Notes under the pieces: model-generated
The model's input: the letters and a program-made list of their open reading frames with translations, nothing else
Database searches by the model: none
Told to the model about the DNA's origin: nothing
DNA from: Nymphaea colorata
Lineage: Eukaryota > Streptophyta > Magnoliopsida > Nymphaeales > Nymphaeaceae
Direction of reading: 5' to 3'
Length of the DNA stretch: 64,000 nt
NCBI RefSeq assembly: GCF_008831285.2
Contig: NC_045144.1
Coordinates: 6,498,176-6,562,175, forward strand
Translations under genes and position numbers: made by a program
Shown here: positions 2,848 to 41,446 of the stretch, piece after piece
Numbering within the stretch: position 1 is the stretch's first letter
Layout of the letters: the number at the start of each line of letters is the position of its first letter

Positions 2848-5114
2848 TTGATCTCAGTATATGCATGATATGATACTATAATTTCTTTATTCAAAATATA
2901 TGCTTGTCATTTTAGCTTCATTGGTATAATGCATAAAAGGACAACTTGGATTAATGCATTGTCGGTTCCATGAAATATTAGGGACAAACTTAACCTTCTA
3001 AGATGATTACCATAAGCATTTGATTGTCATGAATAAACATTAAAGCACTTAAGAAGATCATCCAAAAAACTCACTTCATGAAGTTTTTTTGAATTTAAGA
3101 CAGATCTTCTATGCATTTAGTTTTGCCATTTGGTGGGCTCTTCAGAACTACGCTGGAAAGATAGTTGAACTAATTGAGCGATAGAACCCACAATATGGCC
3201 TATTTGCACCTAGGCATGATAAAGGTTGTCTTGTTGGTCAGCAAAGAAGGGGAAAACATAAATAAGGAAATGAGCAAGAAAGTGTTTTGAGACCCCATCA
3301 TAGTCAACGCATTATAAGATAGAACAGAACAAAACATAAAACTGCAGAGATAAACTTTCAATAACATTTTTCGTTTGAGCCTCCCAGGTGTCTCAATTTA
3401 CATGCCTGGGCTGCTGTCGGTGCCTAGACATGCTTTTAACGATTCAAATTTTGAAGGAAACTCTAAGTGAGGAGCCAAGTTGTTGTTGATAGAGGCTCAA
3501 GGAAATAAGGGCACTGAATGTGTGTCTCGCAATTATTGTAGGTGGGACCATGTGCTCTTAGGAGTATGAACAATTCATGGCTTGCTTTGCAAGAGACTAT
3601 TGTTCCATGGGGACTTGAAAATTTTCTTTTGACATAACTCTCTATCAAATAAACTTAGCAAGCAAGCACCATCTGATCATCAAGGTTTGGCATGAGAAGA
3701 TTGAAAAGAGACCTCATTGATACGCATTTGATGTGGATCCTGATCCATCTGATCAGTGACAACTCAAATCACAAATATCTCTCGTACAATTGGATAAATC
3801 AAACATGTCCACATGCCCTGGCACCAAAAAGAACAAAGAGTGGTGGTATCAGATATGAACTGATGGTAATAATTCAAAACAGCAACAAACATCAAAACAA
3901 TTGCATCGAAAAAATGATAGCTTCTTTCTTTTAAGGTTATGCCCTCGCGTGTTAAAATCAATCCATGCAAAACTTTTGCAAGAGACCTACAAGGCAAGAC
4001 ATCTACAGTTCAGTTTTTACCATCCCAAACACAATAATTCGTAAGAAACAATATAGTAACCATGAGAAGGCACAACCAACTAATTTCTGAACTACCGATT
4101 TTGGTCTAATGATTGGTGAACGGCCAAATCCATTTGGAGCTACTTTGGAGACAACTACAGTTTTCTGCTGGAAGAAGCATGGTCTACTAACTTTCTACTA
4201 AATGGCACCTTTCATTCCAAAGGCCATCTTCTGAACAAACGATAGGATAACTTAAAGATGCATAATCATAGACGACTTACAGCCATAAAAGCTTCCCTCT
4301 ACGATGTTCTTAACTCACTGCTAGTTCTCAACCTGTTAACCAACTGCTTAGGGCAGTTACCCATGGAAAATGCCTCGTGGAAATTTGAAAAGACTTATAG
4401 AGTTTCCACTTCTTCAAAATCCCTGTAGTTCAATGTCCTTTCAGAAAATTATTTTTAAATTGCAGGTTCTTGGACTTTTGGTTCTTGCCTTCTAGGTAGC
4501 AATTCTGATTCCAATAAGTTGAGGAGCATAAGGTACAAGGAATTTGGTGATGATCCAAGAATGTCCATCATTATAGTTGCCGACTTTCTAACTTTTTTCC
4601 GATTGGGTTTTTGCAGAGAGAGGACTGCCACAGTTAGACTTGTGTTATTGATTAATCTCTCCGAGCATGCCCTTCTCGTTCGTACCTGACATTTTCCCCC
4701 CGTTTTCTCTTACACAGATATGTCGGCATGGGTACTGACGCATTAAGCATCAGCACGCGTTCTTTCTGAGGTTCTGAAGCTAGAATACCCAATTAAGACA
4801 GAGGCAGTAGGGATGATGATAACGAAGCAAATGAGAGCGAACAACAAGGATGAGACATAAGAAAATCCAGAAGGCCCTTCAAGAACGCCAGGGAGCAATA
4901 AAAATTTACAGATCACAAACTGCTATAGATAAAGAAAAGGTATATGAATCGGAAATGCATTGCTGATAACAACCATTGATTCCGTGGTGCCGGCTAACAA
5001 GAACCAATGGAGTTTACTCAAAGCACTCCAGAAACTGCCGCCGTTTCTCTTTATCCATTTATTATGCCCGTCACTGTGGTCGTTGATCCATGAAGAACAA
5101 GGTCTGTATCTCAC

Positions 5115-11900: not shown

Positions 11901-13516
11901 GGCACTGTACTGCCCTGGTCCGACAGTTCGGCGCTGCAGCGAATTAGAGGTTGTCTCGTTGCCGTTGTGTTAGACGCGCGGAACGGGGAACAGCAAGTTG
12001 CACACATTAAATCTGGTCGTGAGGGCCATGTTCTTATACCAATACCATAAAAGAAGAGGTAACCAGCTAGGGCGGATACAGTTCTCAATGACCAACGGAC
12101 CACCTAGTGTACGGATAGCGGATGACATGGGAAAGGAGGGGCCTTCGATGCTCCTCCGGTTCAAGTAACAGTGTCCTGAGCTTCTCTCTCTCTCGCTCTC
12201 TTCGCAACACCGTTCGTGATTCGTGGAAATGCGTCAACTGTGCACCGACCAAAAGCGTCCTTTGTCCTTCACGGCCTCGTGGCGTCCCCATCTCAAAGGA
12301 CGAATTAGTGATGCTCTTTCTCTTTTTTATTGAAAACGCAGATGAGTTTCCTGTCCTCAGCACTTCGTCTTTTTACCTTTTGCAATTGTTGCAGTCATGC
12401 CAGAGACAGCTGGACTCTGCCCTGCAGCTGTCTTAACTCAGGGAGTGACTACGGAGACGGAGCAGCAGGCCGCGGATGAAGCGGAGGGCAACTCGCTTGC
12501 GCTCTTCCCTCAGCACACTGGCTTCGGTGGTATCTCCGCCGCCGAGAAGAGTCTCGGCCGCAACTCAGCAGGGTAATCATCTCTCTCTCTCTCTCTCTCT
12601 CTCCCTCTCTCTCTCTCTCTCGCGTCGACGCCACCGGCTCCGGACTGACAATCGGTGGGTGGTAGACACCCATACTTCTGATCCGAGTACCTGTTCTGGA
12701 TCCGATCCAGACACCTGAACTGGTTTGGTAACCCAGCAAATCCATGCTCCTATCCGCAACACATACAACGGTAATCCGAGCGAGACCAGGTAAACGAATT
12801 TGGCCGGAGTTGTTCTAAAGAAGGCCTGAACCGACCCATTCAGCAATTAAGAGACGGTTAGATCATAGATGACTCGAAAGGGGGTCGTTTCCTTGTAATT
12901 TGGATCGATCATCGCGGAGATCGACCGTAACCTGGGGGTCGCTTCCTTGTAATTTTGCTCGATCATCGCAGGAATCGGCCGTAACCTGGGGGTCGTTTCC
13001 TTGTAATTTGGATCGATCATCGCAGGGATCGACCGTAAACCTGTGGGTCGTCGATATATCTGTTGTATTGCCCTTCTGGAAATCTAAATGGGATCAAAAA
13101 GGGGTTCTGATGGCAGCTGCATTTCGAACGAAAAAATTGGCAGGCTAGCGGGGAAGGATGGAGGAGGAGGGACGGCACAGATGACGATATTCTATGGCGG
13201 TAAGATGGTGGTATACGACAACGTGCCAGCAGAGAAGGCCGAGGCCGTCATGCATTACATTGGCAACGGTAACGCCCCAAAGCTGCAGCTTGCCACCAAG
13301 ACGAGTGCTTGTGGTACGCCCTGTTTCTTCGCTTCTTCTAAGTCGTTGTTTTCTCTTTAGCGTTCAATTTGATGCGTTACGGTGGACGTCTTTGTTGAAG
13401 TTTACAAAATGCGCAACCTGGTAAACGTCAGCTCATTTGATGGTTTTGTTTTGTTTCAGACCTTCCTCTCGCAAGAAAGGCCTCGCTTCAACGATTTCTC
13501 GAGAAGAGAAAGGACA

Positions 13517-13558
<42 letters not shown>

Positions 13559-15409
13559 GTTTGACCGTCTGGTGGGAGGAATATAAACTTCTGGGTCTGG
13601 ATCTAGACCTCCAGACCGTTGCCTTGTAAGAATATGTGTTTCACGTGGCTCGCTTGGAGCTGTGCCGGCTTGGGTGGAGGCAGGACGAGGGGGTTTCAAG
13701 AATCCAATTTTCATGTGCACTACGTAGCCCTCTCGCAAACTTCATAAATAGCATTTTGAATTTTTTTGGAACTTACTTTGCTTATAATTTTGAAAAGCGA
13801 TCACTTTTTTAATTTTGTTTTAGTACAGACTACACTTCCTAAAAAAAAAAAAATTCCCAAACGAAAGTTTGAATAAATTTCTCTCTAACTTGAAGAAATC
13901 TTTTTTCTAAGTTAAATCATATTTAATTTTTTTCACGCCTATCAAGTTTTAATATGCCACTTCCAAAGGTAAAAATAGAGGTAGAAGACAATACTGAAAA
14001 GAATTACAACCGAGTTTTGCCGCAGCTCATGTTAATGGACTTCACTTCCAGCCATTATTTGACAGTTTCTGTGAACAGTCCGACGCTTGCTAGAATAATT
14101 AGAAAATATTGTCCCTCCCAAGCAAAGTTCGGCTGGGAAATGGAAAATGCCCAAGTGTCGCCGCCGAAGCGTCCGGTCTGTGGGCGATCGTTGCCACACT
14201 GTCTTGGTTCCGACTGCCTAAGCATTTGGCTCGCTAAGCGACGCATCATTGAGTGGGAAGCGAGTCCGGACTCTGGATGAGGACTCCTAGTAACGAATGC
14301 GGCGTTGCTTCTTCATACAAAAGGGGGACGCTTTTTATGCCGATAGCATGTGTCCACGAGGTTTCATCAAGTGCTGGTGGGTCCCTGCACATGACGTGTT
14401 CATAGAAGGGAACTCCTGAACCACTCGGGCCGGCCGCCACTATCAACGTGTAGCTGAGCCACACTATGCTTGGCCACTTTCAGTTATAACTTTTGTTCAA
14501 CTGCTACAATATCAAAGATCTATGTTCTTTCGAAAAGTTTTTCACACGAGTAATACTTACTGTAATACCCATATAAGAGCACGAGATGGCTTTTCAGGAA
14601 GATACTGTTTTAAGTTTGTCGATATTCTAAAATTTTATACTAACTTAAAATCTTATACTATTTGAAGATTTTGTCTCACCAGTAGCTGCAATAATGTTGG
14701 GACCTATCACGCCTTATCAGTCTTCTACTGGTCTACGTTTCCTTTTTTTTTTTCCTCTCTCGAGAGTTTAAGATGAAGTTATCCTCATGTGAGCAAAAGC
14801 TCTTTGATATTTCGGAAGCCCAAGCTGTTGCAGAATCCATTAAGATTGAGCAAAGCAATTGCTGACCAGCGGCCTTTAAAAAGATGACCTGGAAACTGGA
14901 AGTTGGTTTTGCTCAACCTGAGCAAGTGTTGTATCTTCCCAAAGTTATGAGGAGATGGCGTGGGCGATGGCACAAGATTTCTGTCATGTGGTGTTCTTTA
15001 GTGAATCTAGTAGCTGTGCATTATTAGGCACGATTGTTTAGTTGACGACAGATTTACAGGAGTTTAACAGGATTGTTTGCAATTGTAGAAGATGTTGCTG
15101 TTTTTGGTTTTCTTGTGCAACTCTTTGTTTGTTCAAATGCCTTAACTCTTCTGCCTCAGGCTTAGAGCAAAGTCTCCCTACGAGATGAGCAACTCTTCGT
15201 CAGCATCTCTCACAAAGGAGGAGCTTCAACATAACAAGGACACATCAGGCCTGTCGGAATCTGCTTTCCCCGTTTGTCTGGGGCTCTCACAGGCTTCTGA
15301 GTTATTCTCCGGCAAGTCATGGCCTGGGAGGAGCCCAAACGCACAGGGATTCAAGCCCTATGGGCTGCATTTGCTACCACTTGATCCTCCAGGCCCGACC
15401 ATCTCTTGA
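8975..15409 (+). CDS. JAZ: JAZ/TIFY jasmonate-signalling repressor, five exons
   Basis: JAZ proteins repress MYC-type factors in the nucleus; jasmonoyl-isoleucine makes COI1 bind the Jas degron and destroy them. Exons are 8975-9155, 12395-12572, 13117-13313, 13460-13517 and 15160-15409, all phase-compatible, giving 287 aa. Residues 33-52 carry SRLSQYIRENGG followed by GDLSLGL (an LxLxL, EAR-like motif). LFPQ lies at 97-100, TIFYGGK near 143-149 (the NINJA-binding domain), and the Jas motif DLPLARKASLQRFLEKRKDR at 186-205. AKSPY follows in the last exon, so the conserved Jas intron separates the degron from PY. The exon 3 acceptor could instead be at 13144, also in phase. The first ATG by homology is 8975; an in-frame ATG at 8813 would add 54 residues. 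It most resembles the JAZ1/JAZ2 type. Identity is near certain. Confidence 0.95.
9156..12394 (+). other. JAZ intron 1, no confident gene
   Basis: A 3.2-kb intron. The first 1.1 kb is GC-rich and has open but unrecognisable frames. Positions 10800-11210 hold a patch rich in GAATC/GATTC/ATATCT words with a short (TA)n at about 11130. An inverted GTGGGCA/TGCCCAC pair lies near 10757-10777. Nothing here resembles a conserved domain. Confidence 0.6.
12580..12621. repeat. (CT)n tract directly after JAZ exon 2 donor
   Basis: The donor GG/GTAATC at 12573 is followed within 7 nt by about 40 nt of CT repeat, interrupted by one CCC. Confidence 0.9.
12880..13050. repeat. 54-bp minisatellite in JAZ intron 2
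   Basis: Three copies of a unit beginning GGGGGTCGTTTCCTTGTAA start at 12880, 12934 and 12988, with a few substitutions, followed by a partial fourth at about 13043. The unit contains GATCGATCATCGC. The array ends about 65 bp before the TIFY exon. 54 is a multiple of three, and one frame stays open across it. Confidence 0.9.
13521..13554. repeat. (TC)n tract at the Jas-intron donor
   Basis: The donor GACAG/GTT at 13517/13518 runs straight into 17 uninterrupted TC units. Read in the JAZ frame the tract encodes alternating Leu and Ser. Confidence 0.95.
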
Positions 15410-22651: not shown

Positions 22652-25600
22652 CGTCAAGGGCCATAGCTGGTTCATTTACCCACCTAACCTTGTTAATGGG
22701 CCATTAACAGACCAGGTGGGCAGGATTGTCACCCACCACATTGACAAGCTCTAACAAAGATGGTGAACTGGAGTGTGGCCATGTAGCATGAAGAGCATAT
22801 AAAAATATCTGAAGCAAAAAGGCTATTTCTCGTCAAATAATTCTGGCTCAAAGTTGAGTCTCAGCAAACATGACATATTGCACGGAGTTTCATTGGAGCA
22901 AGACCTTCATTATCTATGATAGAATTTCACACAGCAAAAATAGGTTCCTGCCAATTTCAAATCAACAAAAATATGAAGAGCTTACTAAAAGATCTGGATA
23001 TGCTCCCCAAGCAAACAATCACCACAAATGCTGAGGGGAAAATTGGAGAAATCAGGTCCATCAGCATTCCTGCAACAACATTTGAATTGTTTCTTTTAGT
23101 CTACATGGATAATTAGAAAAATGAGGAACAGTAGCCAAATGCTGACAACCACATTACATCAAGAAGGGGATTCTCTGAGGGAATCATCCAGCTTTAAATA
23201 GTAAAAGCTTAAAAGTAAATAAGATTTTTAAATGTTGATAATAAATGTCCAGAGCCAAGGCAGCAATATCTCTAACATTATTTTAAAAAAAAAAACTAGT
23301 GAAGGCAAGCAATTAATACGATTATTACATGGTATAAAAGATTGACAAAAAAATCATCTTGAAGGGAAATAATTGTCCATCATTCAGCCATGTCAAAAAT
23401 TGAAATAGCATCTCTCATGCAAAGAAAATGCAAAAGAAGTGTGCAAGAGAAATACCAAGATCATTCATAAAGTCAGCAGCCAAGCGCCATGTTTTGGCAT
23501 TGGCATCAAGTTTTGAACCCTGAAGTTAATAATGTACAGAAAACATAATCAGTAACACTGAGGGTGGAAACAATCACAATAAATTAAATATACAGGAATA
23601 TTTTTTTAATTAGGGAAATACACAGCATCAATGGACATGTAATGAAATATGTTAGAATATGTTGCTGTGGGAACCGGATCCATTCCTGGACCCGGTTCTA
23701 TGGGGCGCGGGTACCGAGGCGGGCTCGGTACCCTAGGCGGCTTCTCCTCTCTCCCTCTTTATATTGTCACTTGTGTTTAGTGTTGAATTAAGTGAAATAT
23801 AATTTTCTCTCTCCTAGGGTTGCGGTGTGCCCCTAGGTCAGAGCCTCCCCGTGGTTTTTCACCTCTTTCTGAGGTTTTCCACGTAGATTGTGTGTTCGTT
23901 CTCCACTCTCTCTCTGTGTGGTTCGTGTTTCTACATGGTATCAGAGCCAGCGGAGTTGGAGAAGCGTTTTTTCCAAGGATCGTCAAGTTTTTTCGTCGCC
24001 CGACGCCGTTGAAGTTCCGGCGCCGCTGCTGCCCGTGTGACGTCGCCCTGCTTTGCCGCCGCTGTCCTTTGTTCCGCCGCCGCCGTCCTCTGTTCCGGCG
24101 TCGCTGCTGCCCTTGTGACGTCGCCCTGCTCTGCCGCCGCCGTCCTCTGTTCCGCCGCCGCCGTCCTCTGTTCCGCCGCCCTCTGTTACGCCTCCGCCGC
24201 CCTCTGTTACGCCTCCGCCGTCCTCTGTTCCGCCGCCCTCTATTACGCCTCCGTTCGTCCCGTTCTTTGTTTCTGCCACCGTGGGTGGCCTCTGTGTTGC
24301 GCCGTCGCCTGCTTTACGTTGCCTCTGCCTCATTCCAGCCGCCGTCGCCGCTGCCTCCTTCCCGCTGCTGTGCCTCTTGTTGCTGTGTGCTAGTTTGTGA
24401 TGGCAGAAGCGATGGGGACTCAAAAAGATGCCGTTCTTGACACGGGCAGCGCCTCCAAGACTGAGAACGTGCCGCTCCAGGTCACCTCCATCCGTCTGAC
24501 CAAGGACAATTACCTATCTTGGTCTGCCGCTCTCGAGATTGGGATTACTAGCCGTGGGCGTCTCTCTTACATCACTGGCGACAAACCTGCGCCCATTAAA
24601 TCTGATCCTCAATGGGCGACGTGGGCGTTGGAGGACAGCCAAGTGAAGGTGTGGATTATCAGCTCCGTGTCATCCGATATTCAGCCCCTCATTCTGCGGA
24701 AGCCGACCTCTTTTGATATGTGGACTGTGCTTGCAAAGATGTATGGTCGCAAGAAGAGACATTTGCGCACCTATCAGATTAAACGCAGTATTTACTCTCT
24801 GACACAGGGTGATTTGTCTGTTGCTGCCTTCTATGCTGCCCTGAAGACCAAGTGGGAGGAGTTAGATTATCATGTGACTGATGAGTGGACATGCGGTTCA
24901 GATCATTCCCTCTACTGGGAAAAGGAATGGATGGACCGTACGTTTCTGTTTCTGGGAGGCCTGCGGGATGAATTTGAGTCTATTCGTAGCCAGATTCTTA
25001 ATGGTGATGAGATTCCGGGGATAGAGGAAGTATATGCTCGTGTTGAGTCTGAAGAACAACGTCGCCAGGTGATGCATCTTGACACCGGTCATGGCCCTTC
25101 TGCCTTTGTCAGCCGTGCCTCAGGGACTGGGCAGCGTCCTGCCCGACATTGCACTCATTGCCACAAGTTGGGGCATTCGGTGGATTTCTGTTGGGATCTT
25201 CATCCCGAGAAGAGACTGGTCAGAGGTCGTCCTCCCTCTGGCAAGCGTAGCCCTTCTGTGTCTGATTCCAGTCAGAGCAATTCTTCTAGTGGTGCAAAGT
25301 CCAAGTTGTCCCCTGCTCAACTCAAGGAGCTACAGGCGTACATCAGCCGTCTATCTACTACCCCTGAGGAGTCCTCCACGTCTGAAGGGGCTCAGCTAGC
25401 CCAAGCTCTCGTTGCCTCGACTGATCAAGGTAACCCTTCTCTTGGTGATTGGATTGTTGATAGTGGAGCCACTCACCACATGACAGGGGACTCTAAACTC
25501 TTTCAAGAATATCAACTTTCTTCTGGCAAGCAACGCGTGTCTATGGCAGATGGGTCTTCTATCTCTGTGGCTGGGAAAGGGAGCTTGTCCCTGTTGAACA

Positions 25601-28600
25601 AATACCGTCTTCACAATGCCCTGCATGTTCCCAATATTCCTGTCAACTTACTCTCTGTCAGCAGTATTACTAGAGAATTAAACTGTAATCTGATTTTCTC
25701 TGCTGATCATTGTTCCCTGCAGGACTTGGTGACGGGGAAGAAGATTGGGATTGGTTCGGTTACTGATGGGCTCTACAGGCTGCCGGTACAAGTTGCTTCA
25801 GCATTGATTTCTGCCACGAGTGGTCACTTGTCTGGTGTGAACGATAGATCTACTGTTCTGCGATGGCACGAGCGTCTTGGACATCTACCCTTCCAGTTAA
25901 TAAAGAAGTTGTTTCCTCATTTGTTTGCTTCTGTCTCAATTGACTCCTTCGCTTGTGAAGTGTGTCAATTGGCTAAACATGTCAGGGCTTCGTACCCTAT
26001 TTCTTTGAATAAAACCACTCATCCGTTTGCCTTAGTTCATTCCGATGTTTGGGGTCCTTCTGGAGTACCCACGTGTGGTGGTTGTCACTATTTTTTGACG
26101 CTTATTGATGATTACTCTAGATGTACGTTCGTGTACTTGTTGCGAGAACGTAGTGAGGTTCCAGCAGTTGTGAAAAACTTTGTTGCCTTTGTTGAGACTC
26201 AATTCCATACTACTGTTCAAGCTTTCCGTACGGATAATGCAAGAGAATATGTCTCCCAATCCCTTGATGAATTCTTGAAAGGCAAGGGTATTGTTCATGA
26301 AACCTCTTGTAGTTATACCCCTCCTCAAAATGGTATAGCTGAACGTAAAAATCGTCATCTATTGAATGTTACCCGGGCCATTATGTTCCAACGTCATGTC
26401 CCGAAGCGGTATTGGGGTGATGCACTTCTCACTAGTGCACATCTCATTAACCGTATGCCTACTAGGGTGTTGGATGGTCAGTCTCCTTATTCTACCCTGT
26501 GGCCCACTCAGAATCCGTGGCCTCTTACTCCTCGTGTCTTTGGGTGCAGTTGTTTTGTGCATAATCATAGCCCTACTCTCAAAAAACTTGATCCCCGGTC
26601 TATTAAAGGAGTTTTCCTGGGGTACTCTTCCACTCAGAAGGGGTATAAATGTGTGGATCCCACTACTTCCAAAGTGTATGTTTCGAGGGATGTCACATTT
26701 CATGAACATGAGTCGTATTTTTCGGTGAATCCTCTTCAGGGGGAGTGTCTTGGGAACAAAGGGGAAGCGTATTCCTCTAATCAGCTAATTCAGTTTATGG
26801 AGTTTTTGGATTACAAGGTTAGTCCCAGTGTGATTGACACGGTCACGGTCAGTAATGAGAAGGGCAGCCATATGGAAGGGGTCACGGTGGATGCTCAGCC
26901 CATTGTTGCCCGGGATCACTTGTTTGGCCAGGTTTATGTCAGAAAGGAGAAAGCTACAGTGGAAGATGTTGGTGATGAGGATAGAACCAATCCCAATCCT
27001 GTGATCTCCCCGGATGACCCAAGTCCATCGAATGAAGAGCTCCCCATTGCTGTGCGCAAAGGCACCAGGTCATGTACTTCTCACCCTATTCAGAGATTTG
27101 TTTCTTATGCTAAGCTCAGTACAAATTACAAATGTTTTATCACAACCTTATCCAAAGTTGTTATTCCCAGGTCGGTGGATGATGCTAAGGATGATCCCAA
27201 GTGGTTAAATGCTATGACAGAGGAGATGGGTGCGTTAGCTAAGAACAAAACATGGGAAGTTGTTGATATTCCTAAGGGGACACACCTAGTTGGCTCTAAG
27301 TGGGTTTACAACGTGAAGTACAAACCTGATGGCACTGTAGATCGATATAAAGCTCGTTTGGTTGCAAAGGGGTTCAGTCAGAAGTATGGAATCGACTATC
27401 TTGAGACCTTTGCCCCTGTTGCAAAGTTGAAGACCGTGAGGGTTATTCTTGCTCTTGCTGTGCACAGGAAGTGGCGCATGGACCAGCTTGATGTTAAAAA
27501 TGCGTTCTTGAACGGCCATCTGGAGGAAGAAGTCTATATGAGCATGCCTCCCGGGTATGTTCAAGAGGGAAAATGTTGTCACCTCAAGAAAGCTTTGTAT
27601 GGCTTGAAGCAGTCGCCTAGAGCTTGGTTTGAGAGACTAAGGATCGTTATGAAGTCTACTGGGTACAAGCAAGGAAATGGAGATCATACCCTATTCATAA
27701 AGCAGAGAGGTGGTCTGGTGAGTCTTCTCCTTGTCTACGTTGATGATATGATTGTCACTGGCAGTGACGAAGAAGAAAACAGAAAGATGAAGGAGAGATT
27801 ATCTAAGGAATTCGACCTCAAGGATCTGGGTAAGCTGAGATACTTTCTGGGGATAGAGATTGCTCGATCAGAGACAGGGCTGGTTATGAATCAAAGGAAG
27901 TACACTCTTGACTTACTAAAGGAGACAGGCAAACTTGGTTGTAGGCCCTATCTTACTCCTATAGAGTCGGGAACTAAGATAAGTATCAAGACGGGCACTA
28001 TTCTGGATGAGGAAGGAAAAGGGCGATATCAGAGGCTAGTAGGTAAGCTTATCTATCTTACTCTAACTCGCCCTGATATCACGTATGCGGTAAATGTGCT
28101 AAGTCAATTTATGCATGCTCCCACGGATTGTCACTGGAAGAGTGCAGAAAGAGTGTTGGGATATCTAAAGAATGACCCAGGAAAAGGACTGTTGTATACT
28201 CGACAGGACAAACTTACCATTGAGGGCTACTCAGATGCAGATTGGGCAGGTTGCACTGACACAAGGAGGTCTACTACAGGGTATTGTATCTTTCTTGGAG
28301 GTAACCTAGTTGTTTGGAGAAGTAAGAGGCAAGAAGTATGTTCGAGGTCTAGTGCGGAGGCTGAGTACAGGGCTGTTGCAATGGGGGTTACAGAGATGCT
28401 GTGGCTGAAGATTCTTTTGACTGATATTGGTGTGGAATTGGGAGATAAAATGAAGATGTACTGTGACAACAAGTCTGCGATTAATCTTGCCAATAATCCA
28501 GTTCTACATGACAGGACCAAACATGTGGAGATTGATCGTCATTTTATCCGGGAACGCATTGACTCAAAGGAGCTGATTCTGCCATATATGAAGTCTGAAG

Positions 28601-31600
28601 ATCAAGTTGCAGACGTCCTAACTAAAGGGCTTTGTACTTCTTCATTCGAAAAGAATGTTAGCAAGCTTGGCATGTTTGACATGTATGCCAAGCTTGAGGG
28701 GGAGTGTTAGAATATGTTGCTGTGGGAACCGGATCCATTCCTGGACCCGGTTCTATGGGGCGCGGGTACCGAGGCGGGCTCGGTACCCTAGGCGGCTTCT
28801 CCTCTCTCCCTCTTTATATTGTCACTTGTGTTTAGTGTTGAATTAAGTGAAATATAATTTTCTCTCTCCTAGGGTTGCGGTGTGCCCCTAGGTCAGAGCC
28901 TCCCCGTGGTTTTTCACCTCTTTCTGAGGTTTTCCACGTAGATTGTGTGTTCGTTCTCCACTCTCTCTCTGTGTGGTTCGTGTTTCTACAAAATATATTG
29001 AAGACAATGGAATACAGTGAAAGACAGCATCTAGTTCTCTTTGAAACAAGGAAAATGACCATCACATGAACTCAGACTTTCATCTGAACTTCTGTGCCAA
29101 GCAAGGGATTCCAAATGCAGAGACTAAGGAGGATTCTGAGGAAGCAAAGTCTAGCAGAGGTGAGCAACAATTCTTATTGGTGACACTTTCACAGATGAAT
29201 ATAAAGCAGAGCAATTAGGGTGTATGGTACTTGGACTCTGGGGCAGTAACCCATGTCAGAGACTCAGAGATGATGTTAATGAGCTCTCAAACTTTCATTT
29301 TTATTCTGATAAAGGCAGTATTGTGACTGGAGCTCTCAGGCTATTGTATTTTTATTGGAGGATATCCAAGTATCATGGAGGAATAGAAATGTTGCTAAGT
29401 CAAATACTTAAAACAAACCATCAATCTATGGCTGCTGGCACAGCTAAATTCAGATGGATTAGACACTTGTTGAGCGAGCTAGGAGAATCTAGCTCAAGAT
29501 CGCCATTGTTGTACAATAACAGTTATCACAGTCACACGAAACATTGAGATAGATCAACACTTTATCAGGTAAATGCAAAGAGATTGGGTCGTAATATATT
29601 ACAACTAAGAATCAAGTGACTGATCTATTCGCTGAATGGCTTACAAAGCACTGTATTTGGTATTTAAAGAGCAAGTTGTCCATACTTCCAAACCATATAC
29701 CACTTGATGGATGCTAATAAGACACATTGGATGTGGATCTAGCCAAGATCGGAACATGATGTACATTGGGCAGATATCTGTGGATATACTTGTAATTTAT
29801 TCTTGTACTTAAGGATATTTTTAGCATGTGTTTATCTTGTAACAAATAGTATACTTAAATAAAATTAGGTCAATCATAGCCCTGTCTCTCTCTTTGCCTC
29901 CTCAGTGTTTCTTGAGGACATAGACAGGGGCAGCTATACTTCTCAATCTAGCAGTTCAAGTGATAAAAAAGACTATCTGAGGCTGTTAAGCTTTATTTTT
30001 AGGAGAAATGTTCATTTGAACCAATTCCTGACCCATAAGAGAACGTCATGCTTTCACTTTCTTACATGGAGAAGGCATATTACAACAAGTCGATAACTGT
30101 CAAATGAAGGCCTACATCACCATTGCTCAAAAGCCAACTACGTGAGAAGCTTTTGCAAGAAGACAGACTCTGACACGAGGCTTGTACTTCAGAGTTGTCA
30201 GGGAAGTTGCGCCACACATCAGGAAATTTAGAAATTTGACTCTTTCTTTTGGGATTAGAAGCAAAAGATTGACATATTAGAAATGTATCATACATAGGAT
30301 ATTACCTTAATTAATTGTGTTTTGTTTGGTGCAGTTTATGAGTGCAACTAGATATCTCTGCAATCTTGTATTCCTCAGCTTTCACCCATAGCATTTGATC
30401 CACAAATGCATAGACAGTAAATCTTCCCCATATCCTCTCCAAGTTATTGCTTTACCGATCGAAGGAACTTCTCCATATGGTATCCTCATGGTACAACTAA
30501 GGGTCAACTTACCATAATCAGACTGACTAGTGTAACCGTACTTGATTAGTAGTCGCATAAAAGCAAATACTAATAAAATTATAAATCACATTGAATAAAT
30601 CTGATAAATGGCATCTTAAAATCCAGTCTTGCGACCTGACAATATCGTTTTACTTTTTATATAGTACAATATATCACCCATTATAATTTTTTGCAGAAAT
30701 TCCTAATTTCATGAATTTTCTACTTTCATCAGAACAAAGATTTTTATGTTGCCACAACATAGATTCATTCATACATTCATTTAATGGGGCCAATAGACAT
30801 GGTTTACTACATGCATTTTACAACCTTGGTACAACCATGTTTACTTCATTCAAGTAAGATTAAAACACCCCTAATGGATTGGCATAACAGGCCTCAATAA
30901 TAGTATCTTTACACAGATGCACATGCTTGCACCAAATACAGATATGGTGTAAAACATTATAAGAGGATTCTTGATGCAGTAGAGAATGCTGTAGGGACAT
31001 CATCACACAACCATGCAACACACTCAAAAGTACAGCTATTACCTGAAAAAAAGTGAACAAGATTCCTCCAAGCATGCCAGTGAAATCCCTCAGGAACCAC
31101 TGTACTTGTCAACAGACTAGCATTGTTATCACAAATAGATGAAGATAAAATCTGGTAGAAATTGAGGAACTATTATGCGTAGTTATTTAAGGAAATTTAA
31201 CAGGATGAGTACTTGCTGCACTAATAGGATAATAACTTAACGAAAGATACACAATATGTTCAATAGATCAAGTAATCCATGCTGCAGAGAGGCAATTAGC
31301 CAATTACAGTTCCCAATAAATACATTTAAAAATCATAAATCCAATGTTTCAAACAGCTTCTGAAATGAATGAATTGCTTTTAACAAGTAAAAAATATAGA
31401 AACCGTGCTGCACAACAGTTACATCTGACAGTTAAAAAAGATAACTCTGTCAAGTATCATGACTTGCTTATACCTTAACTCATCTACAATTTGTAACTTT
31501 ACCATGACAACAAGGAATAAAACTAGAGGATATAAAATGTTGTTCCAGCAAACACTGTGGTATCCTATAGAAGTATTAAAGTCATCTTCCATATGGTTGC

Positions 31601-41372: not shown

Positions 41373-41396
41373 CGCTAGAAGGAGGGCTTGAACCTC

Positions 41397-41429
<33 letters not shown>

Positions 41430-41446
41430 AACTGAGCTATTCCAGC
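41373..41446 (-). tRNA. tRNA-Asn (anticodon GTT)
   Basis: 74 nt on the minus strand, beginning GCTGGAATAGCTCAGTTGG. The acceptor stem GCTGGAA pairs with TTCTAGC (one G-U), and the discriminator base is G. The anticodon loop CTGTTAA gives anticodon GTT, for asparagine. The internal A box (TAGCTCAGTTGG) and B box (GGTTCAAGCCC) are intact. There is no intron. CCA is not encoded, as expected for a nuclear gene. It lies 208 bp upstream of the RIK start codon on the opposite strand. Confidence 0.97.

Follow-up and report, generated by a model that had tools for sequence, protein, structure and literature searches.

Splice variants of the Jas intron in Arabidopsis, such as JAZ10.3, are said to have been described by Chung and Howe in 2009, by Chung et al. 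in 2010 and by Moreno et al. in 2013. Within the Jas motif, the Jas intron separates a core of 20 residues from the X5PY segment, and isoforms without X5PY or without the whole Jas domain are less well recognized by COI1, escape degradation and behave as dominant repressors (PMC7450174; PMC12647438). Orthologues of the JAZ10.3 protein in other plants are made by varied types of splicing (PMC10952736). In Hevea, three JAZ genes have a predicted read-through that stops "immediately or very rapidly." For two JAZ genes of this plant, the spliced form outweighs the unspliced one at least 500-fold, and tapping alters Jas-intron splicing in those two genes (PMC4274682). Since retention is regulated there by tapping, rarity of a retained form does not rule out a role.

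The EAR motif is the other element of relevance here. LSLSL is among the listed EAR motifs of MYB repressors, LDLDL is present in listed EAR proteins, and the EAR motif of JAZ8 is N-terminal, with LELRL at residue 9 (PMC9956375), while a C-terminal EAR motif has been reported to be conserved in the orthologues of AtJAZ5/6 (PMC6829463). The TOPLESS interaction of wheat Q is, in the passage cited, not mediated by its LDLDL (PMC9956375), and an LxLxL word is thus not sufficient. Among the papers listed for Jas introns, JAZ splicing and EAR motifs, no title or abstract opening told of an intron-coded JAZ EAR tail, which does not prove that none has been described. As for simple repeats in plant genes, one study of the (CT)n tract of rice Waxy gives n = 7, 10, 11, 12, 17, 18 and 20 (PMC4070345).

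The window analysed here is a stretch of 64,000 nucleotides from Nymphaea colorata (NC_045144.1, positions 6,498,176 to 6,562,175), and it carries a JAZ gene on the + strand. Our sequence model has four exons, at 12397 to 12572, 13144 to 13313, 13460 to 13517 and 15160 to 15409, which together encode 217 residues. The predicted exon 1 runs from an ATG to the donor GTAATC and is in frame with the TIFY exon; going upstream, the first in-frame stop is met at 12343, and no in-frame ATG intervenes. Exon 2 encodes the TIFY domain (Pfam PF06200 at residues 68 to 97, E 2.7e-16, 59 bits against a cut-off of 27) and gave a match of 62.1 bits in the plant's own genome. Exon 3 holds the core of the Jas motif and encodes DLPLARKASLQRFLEKRKDR, the D of which is common to the preceding exon, and exon 4 supplies the X5PY segment (LRAKSPY) and the C-terminus, its stop codon ending at 15409. 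The PDB peptide 5t0q_B (Protein TIFY 9), which ends in SPY, aligned to exon 4, and the whole product matched PDB chains named Protein TIFY 10A, TIFY 9 and TIFY 7. In the modelled spliced protein, the Jas motif is SLQRFLEKRKDRLRAKSPY, matched by PF09425 at residues 118 to 142 (E 1.4e-13, 50.8 bits against a cut-off of 22.1), and it fits the consensus SLX2FX2KRX2RX5PY (PMC7077819). Both TIFY and Jas are above the Pfam cut-off in the spliced form and the retained form alike. The intron that splits the motif occupies 13518 to 15159 (1,642 nt; donor CAG/GTTTCT, acceptor CTCAG/GCTTAG), and the model places its donor after KRKD plus AG and its acceptor before LRAKSPY, as in a Jas intron. Judged on sequence, the JAZ and Jas-intron reading of the locus appears sound. 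The initial annotation had likewise proposed a JAZ gene in which an intron divides Jas before its PY part, and the Pfam matches to TIFY and Jas agree with this; what it called intron 4 is intron 3 of the four-exon model.

Intron 1 of the gene has repeats of its own: a minisatellite with a 54-bp unit and 3.2 copies at 12880 to 13051, and a second TC tract at 12580 to 12621 that begins 7 nt from the start of the intron. A TC tract is found near the donor in two of the three introns of the gene.

Reading through the Jas intron, the KRKD plus AG at the end of the core exon is joined to GTTTCT and spells R, after which comes a tail that spans 13519 to 13629, with 36 codons (13519 to 13626) in the JAZ frame followed by TAA (13627 to 13629). 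Re-translation returned the same frame, the same count of 36 codons, the same coordinates and the same TAA at 13627 that had been annotated at first. A (TC)17.5 microsatellite of 100% matches adjoins the donor at 13521 to 13555 and is the source of the LS run in the tail. Further on, the codons of LGLDLDLQ, a second EAR-like stretch, lie at 13591 to 13614, most of them within a predicted 8-bp hairpin, GGTCTGGA-8-TCCAGACC, at 13594 to 13617. Altogether, the tail has six overlapping LxLxL words, four in the LS run and two, LGLDL and LDLDL, in the LGLDLDL beyond the TC tract, while a word search of the modelled 217 residues found no LxLxL in the spliced protein. An AATAAA at 13872, 243 nt beyond the stop of the tail, would suit a short transcript terminated in the intron.

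Several other explanations of this stretch were considered and dropped. The donor region (13490 to 13660) folded no better than shuffled sequences (z 0.64, with 150 of 200 shuffles equal or better), which argues against a special RNA fold at the donor, the local hairpin of 8 bp at the GLDLDLQ codons excepted. An origin of the tail in a mobile element is unsupported, as 13556 to 13800 matched itself alone in a genome search that passes over simple repeats and words of very high frequency. Bacterial promoter and terminator patterns were disregarded, as they say nothing about a plant gene. An inverted pair similar to that of the hairpin, GTCTGGATC with one mismatch each, is present in intron 1 at 12693 to 12713.

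The open frame into a 36-residue tail with six LxLxL words that the spliced form does not have could mean that a retained-intron JAZ is made, that its tail works as a genuine EAR domain in direct contact with TOPLESS, and that the protein gains in stability as well as in repressive strength. LSLSL and LDLDL do occur among listed EAR proteins, JAZ8 has its LELRL (PMC9956375), and a conserved C-terminal EAR motif is reported for the AtJAZ5/6 orthologues (PMC6829463). Since LSLSL is listed as an EAR motif in MYB repressors, a translated LS run could bind TOPLESS. However, a TC repeat spells (LS)n in all three frames, and it is because the tract reads L and S alternately in every frame that the LS run and its four LxLxL words are there at all.

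The words beyond the tract are not forced in this way, and we compared them with chance. LxLxL appeared in 2.5% of 20,000 dinucleotide shuffles of 13556 to 13629, in 6.5% of those dinucleotide shuffles that stay open, and in 1.2% of 20,000 mononucleotide shuffles of the same bases. As a second null, each GT in the window, on both strands, was taken as a phase-2 donor and read through (6,751 sites). An immediate stop was met at 18.1% of these sites, a frame open for 36 codons or more at 973 of the 6,751, and among the 623 tails of 30 to 45 residues, LxLxL was present in 41, or in 34 once LS runs had been removed. For one intron fixed beforehand, a post-tract LxLxL is thus mildly unusual. The motif was, though, chosen post hoc, and the LxLxL statistics therefore give little, if still some, reason to see anything special in it.

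The length of the tract proved to be decisive for the second stretch. When tract lengths were simulated from −4 to +4 units (n = 9), LGLDLDL was kept in only three of the nine (−3, 0 and +3); in the remaining six, the tail ended after 13 to 23 residues and the LxLxL beyond the run was lost. The initial annotation had proposed that the length of the TC tract sets the frame of GLDLDLQ, and the nine simulated lengths bear it out. This dependence counts against an EAR domain, as the frame of LDLDL would not survive most changes in tract length.

The other JAZ genes of the same plant offer a further comparison. In the genome searched (407.8 Mb), we found 10 TIFY places, and stretches of 8,001 to 9,001 bases were taken around each. 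Judged by eye, a Jas-like exon was present at eight of the 10 and absent at L014 and L015, and a search of the genome with the Jas profile gave 22 places, of which the eight above the cut-off were the same eight loci. One of these, L016, was left out of the Jas-intron count for want of a GT at the place of the intron, and its motif presumably resembles the CCT type. This leaves seven Jas-exon loci, the window gene included, where the introns of the six paralogues were placed from a GT in the matching codon position and not by their acceptors, a likely acceptor being visible in L011 only (RLASKAPY). At four of the seven (L011, L012, L017 and L018), the read-through tail has 0 residues, because AG/GTAA or AG/GTGA in this phase reads as AGG and a stop; if L010 and L013 are taken to be without an intron, the count of immediate stops is four of five. 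The window gene has a tail of 36 residues instead of an immediate stop because its donor is GTTTCT and not GTAA or GTGA. The read-through of L010 is 31 residues long with no LxLxL, and that of L013 (Jas exon near 4367) has 165 residues, far above the other loci, with one LxLxL word that reads LYLFL. Neither the LS run nor LDLDL was found in the read-through of the other six Jas-exon loci, and among the seven loci, the window gene alone has a TC run of at least five units within 200 nt of the intron's start. Taken together with the post-tract stretch matching only itself, this comparison makes the tail private to the window gene among the paralogues seen.

We therefore part from the initial annotation where it took the EAR-like words for a functional gain, as the repeat dictates the LS run and both LS and LDLDL are absent from the six other loci, where the single LYLFL of L013 stands in 165 residues. 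Nor is its stronger repressor acting through EAR supported, as LxLxL alone is insufficient and wheat Q has an LDLDL that does not mediate TOPLESS interaction, at least in the passage cited (PMC9956375). The TIFY domain is, moreover, intact, so recruitment of TOPLESS through NINJA would not need the tail. With these points set against its leucine-rich words, it is quite unlikely that the tail serves as an EAR domain that binds TOPLESS directly.

The tract could instead matter at the level of RNA. Pyrimidine-binding splicing factors can bind CT tracts, and the tract following the GTTTCT donor might bind them and set how often the Jas intron is removed, with the peptide being incidental. Such a role would fit a tract that begins 3 nt from the donor's start, a donor that matches six of nine consensus bases, compared to seven or eight in the four paralogues with an immediate stop, and the TC tract 7 nt from the donor of intron 1. 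It fits less well with L010 and L013, which also match six of nine and show weaker computed U1 pairing but have no such tract, or with CT tracts being common in the window, where there are seven TC/GA tracts of at least nine units. On balance, we regard this role as unlikely. An unusually weak donor as the sole cause was rejected in view of the weaker computed U1 pairing of the two paralogues.

Two further GT sites in the tail raise the question of whether the normal donor might be replaced. Use of CTG/GTGGGA (13572 to 13573, + strand, +54 nt) or CTT/GTAAGA (13626 to 13627, + strand, +108 nt) would add 18 or 36 residues after the Jas core, ahead of PY, and keep the C-terminus. Both sites are in frame, their offsets of 54 and 108 nt being exact multiples of three, and they leave open frames of 235 or 253 residues. 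Pairing with U1 was computed at −7.3 kcal/mol for the first and −4.3 kcal/mol for the second, against −5.6 kcal/mol for the modelled donor. Against this, the site at 13572 matches only five of nine consensus bases, and that at 13626, with six of nine, has a poor exon side (CTT); two in-frame sites amount to an event of about 1 in 9, and GT sites with at least six matches occur at 3.6 per kb of strand. At that density, the alternative donors are a lead only, and we hold their use to be very improbable. One can go further and imagine the CT tract as a length-tuned switch that weakens splicing to give a stabilised JAZ, with length modulo three toggling the acidic EAR stretch LGLDLDL and creating heritable variation in jasmonate repression, or, in a variant of this idea, with the donors at 13572 and 13626 inserting a leucine-rich stretch into full-length JAZ. 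Such a scheme, too, seems to us very improbable.

The explanation that we favour, and consider probable, is that the locus is an ordinary JAZ gene whose Jas intron has a CT microsatellite at its donor, and that the tail is incidental and not an evolved repression motif. The main transcript would have the Jas intron spliced out and encode a protein whose PY segment and C-terminus are the normal ones. Some transcripts may keep the Jas intron or be cut and polyadenylated within it, and these would give the known PY-less kind of JAZ, with TIFY and the Jas core retained, COI1 recognition lowered and a partial resistance to jasmonate-driven breakdown. Here, the LS run would be what any CT repeat spells, LGLDLDL would be a chance, frame-fragile sequence, and repression by the retained form would still go through TIFY, NINJA and TOPLESS. 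The anatomy of the gene, the frame, the tail, its dependence on tract length and the contrast with the paralogues come from the sequence itself; retention, stability and the NINJA route are all suggested by published work on other plants. What speaks against an incidental tail is that it stays open for 36 codons and that LGLDLDL looks like a good EAR word, EAR motifs being important in this family.

With regard to stability, the alignment of PF09425 in the retained form covers residues 118 to 137, so that positions 1 to 20 of the 26 in the Jas profile are kept, in line with the proposal made at first that a retained form keeps the degron core and loses PY. The alignment of the PDB degron peptide 3ogl spans residues 116 to 136 and lies before the tail save for its last residue or two. 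Some contact with COI1 would thus remain, and stabilisation would be partial. From the isoforms of other plants, we infer that the retained form here would bind COI1 less well and be more stable than the spliced protein.

Elsewhere in the window, a Copia-type retrotransposon at 24394 to 28710 has a stop-to-stop open frame of 1,438 residues with gag, integrase and reverse transcriptase domains, and GC-rich tandem repeats of 21, 57 and 78 bp lie directly upstream of this frame at 24014 to 24253. A tRNA gene is located at 41373 to 41446 on the − strand (Rfam RF00005, 71.7 bits).

The main value of the case is as a warning about LxLxL words that stem from repeats. A CT repeat gives LSLSL in any frame, so searches for LxLxL in retained introns should be controlled for simple repeats. 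The paralogues suggest in addition that a phase-2 donor of the GTAA or GTGA type is a built-in immediate stop for a retained Jas intron, as seen at four of the seven loci, and that departures from it let read-through tails arise. If the tail were made and bound by TOPLESS, a simple repeat would be adjusting how strongly a hormone repressor acts, and the microsatellite itself would have created the functional motif.

Compared with systems already described, the tract resembles the rice Waxy (CT)n as a CT repeat in a plant gene, the Waxy lengths varying irrespective of multiples of three in the study cited, but the Waxy tract is at another locus and in an untranslated exon (PMC4070345). With JAZ8 (PMC9956375) and JAZ5/6 (PMC6829463), this gene would share a JAZ protein able to contact TOPLESS via LxLxL, the contact being only a candidate here; the motifs of JAZ8 and JAZ5/6 are part of the normal protein, in contrast to the words of the window gene, which are intron-coded and partly derived from a repeat. 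As in the Hevea JAZ genes, read-through of the Jas intron reaches an early stop, and there some unspliced transcripts were measured; the three named Hevea genes differ in stopping immediately or very rapidly, and the passages cited describe no EAR-like tail (PMC4274682). The closest likeness in form is to the JAZ10.3 class of Arabidopsis, with an intron at the same position within Jas and a retained form that keeps TIFY and the Jas core and loses X5PY, to which the predicted isoform of the window gene would add 36 residues.
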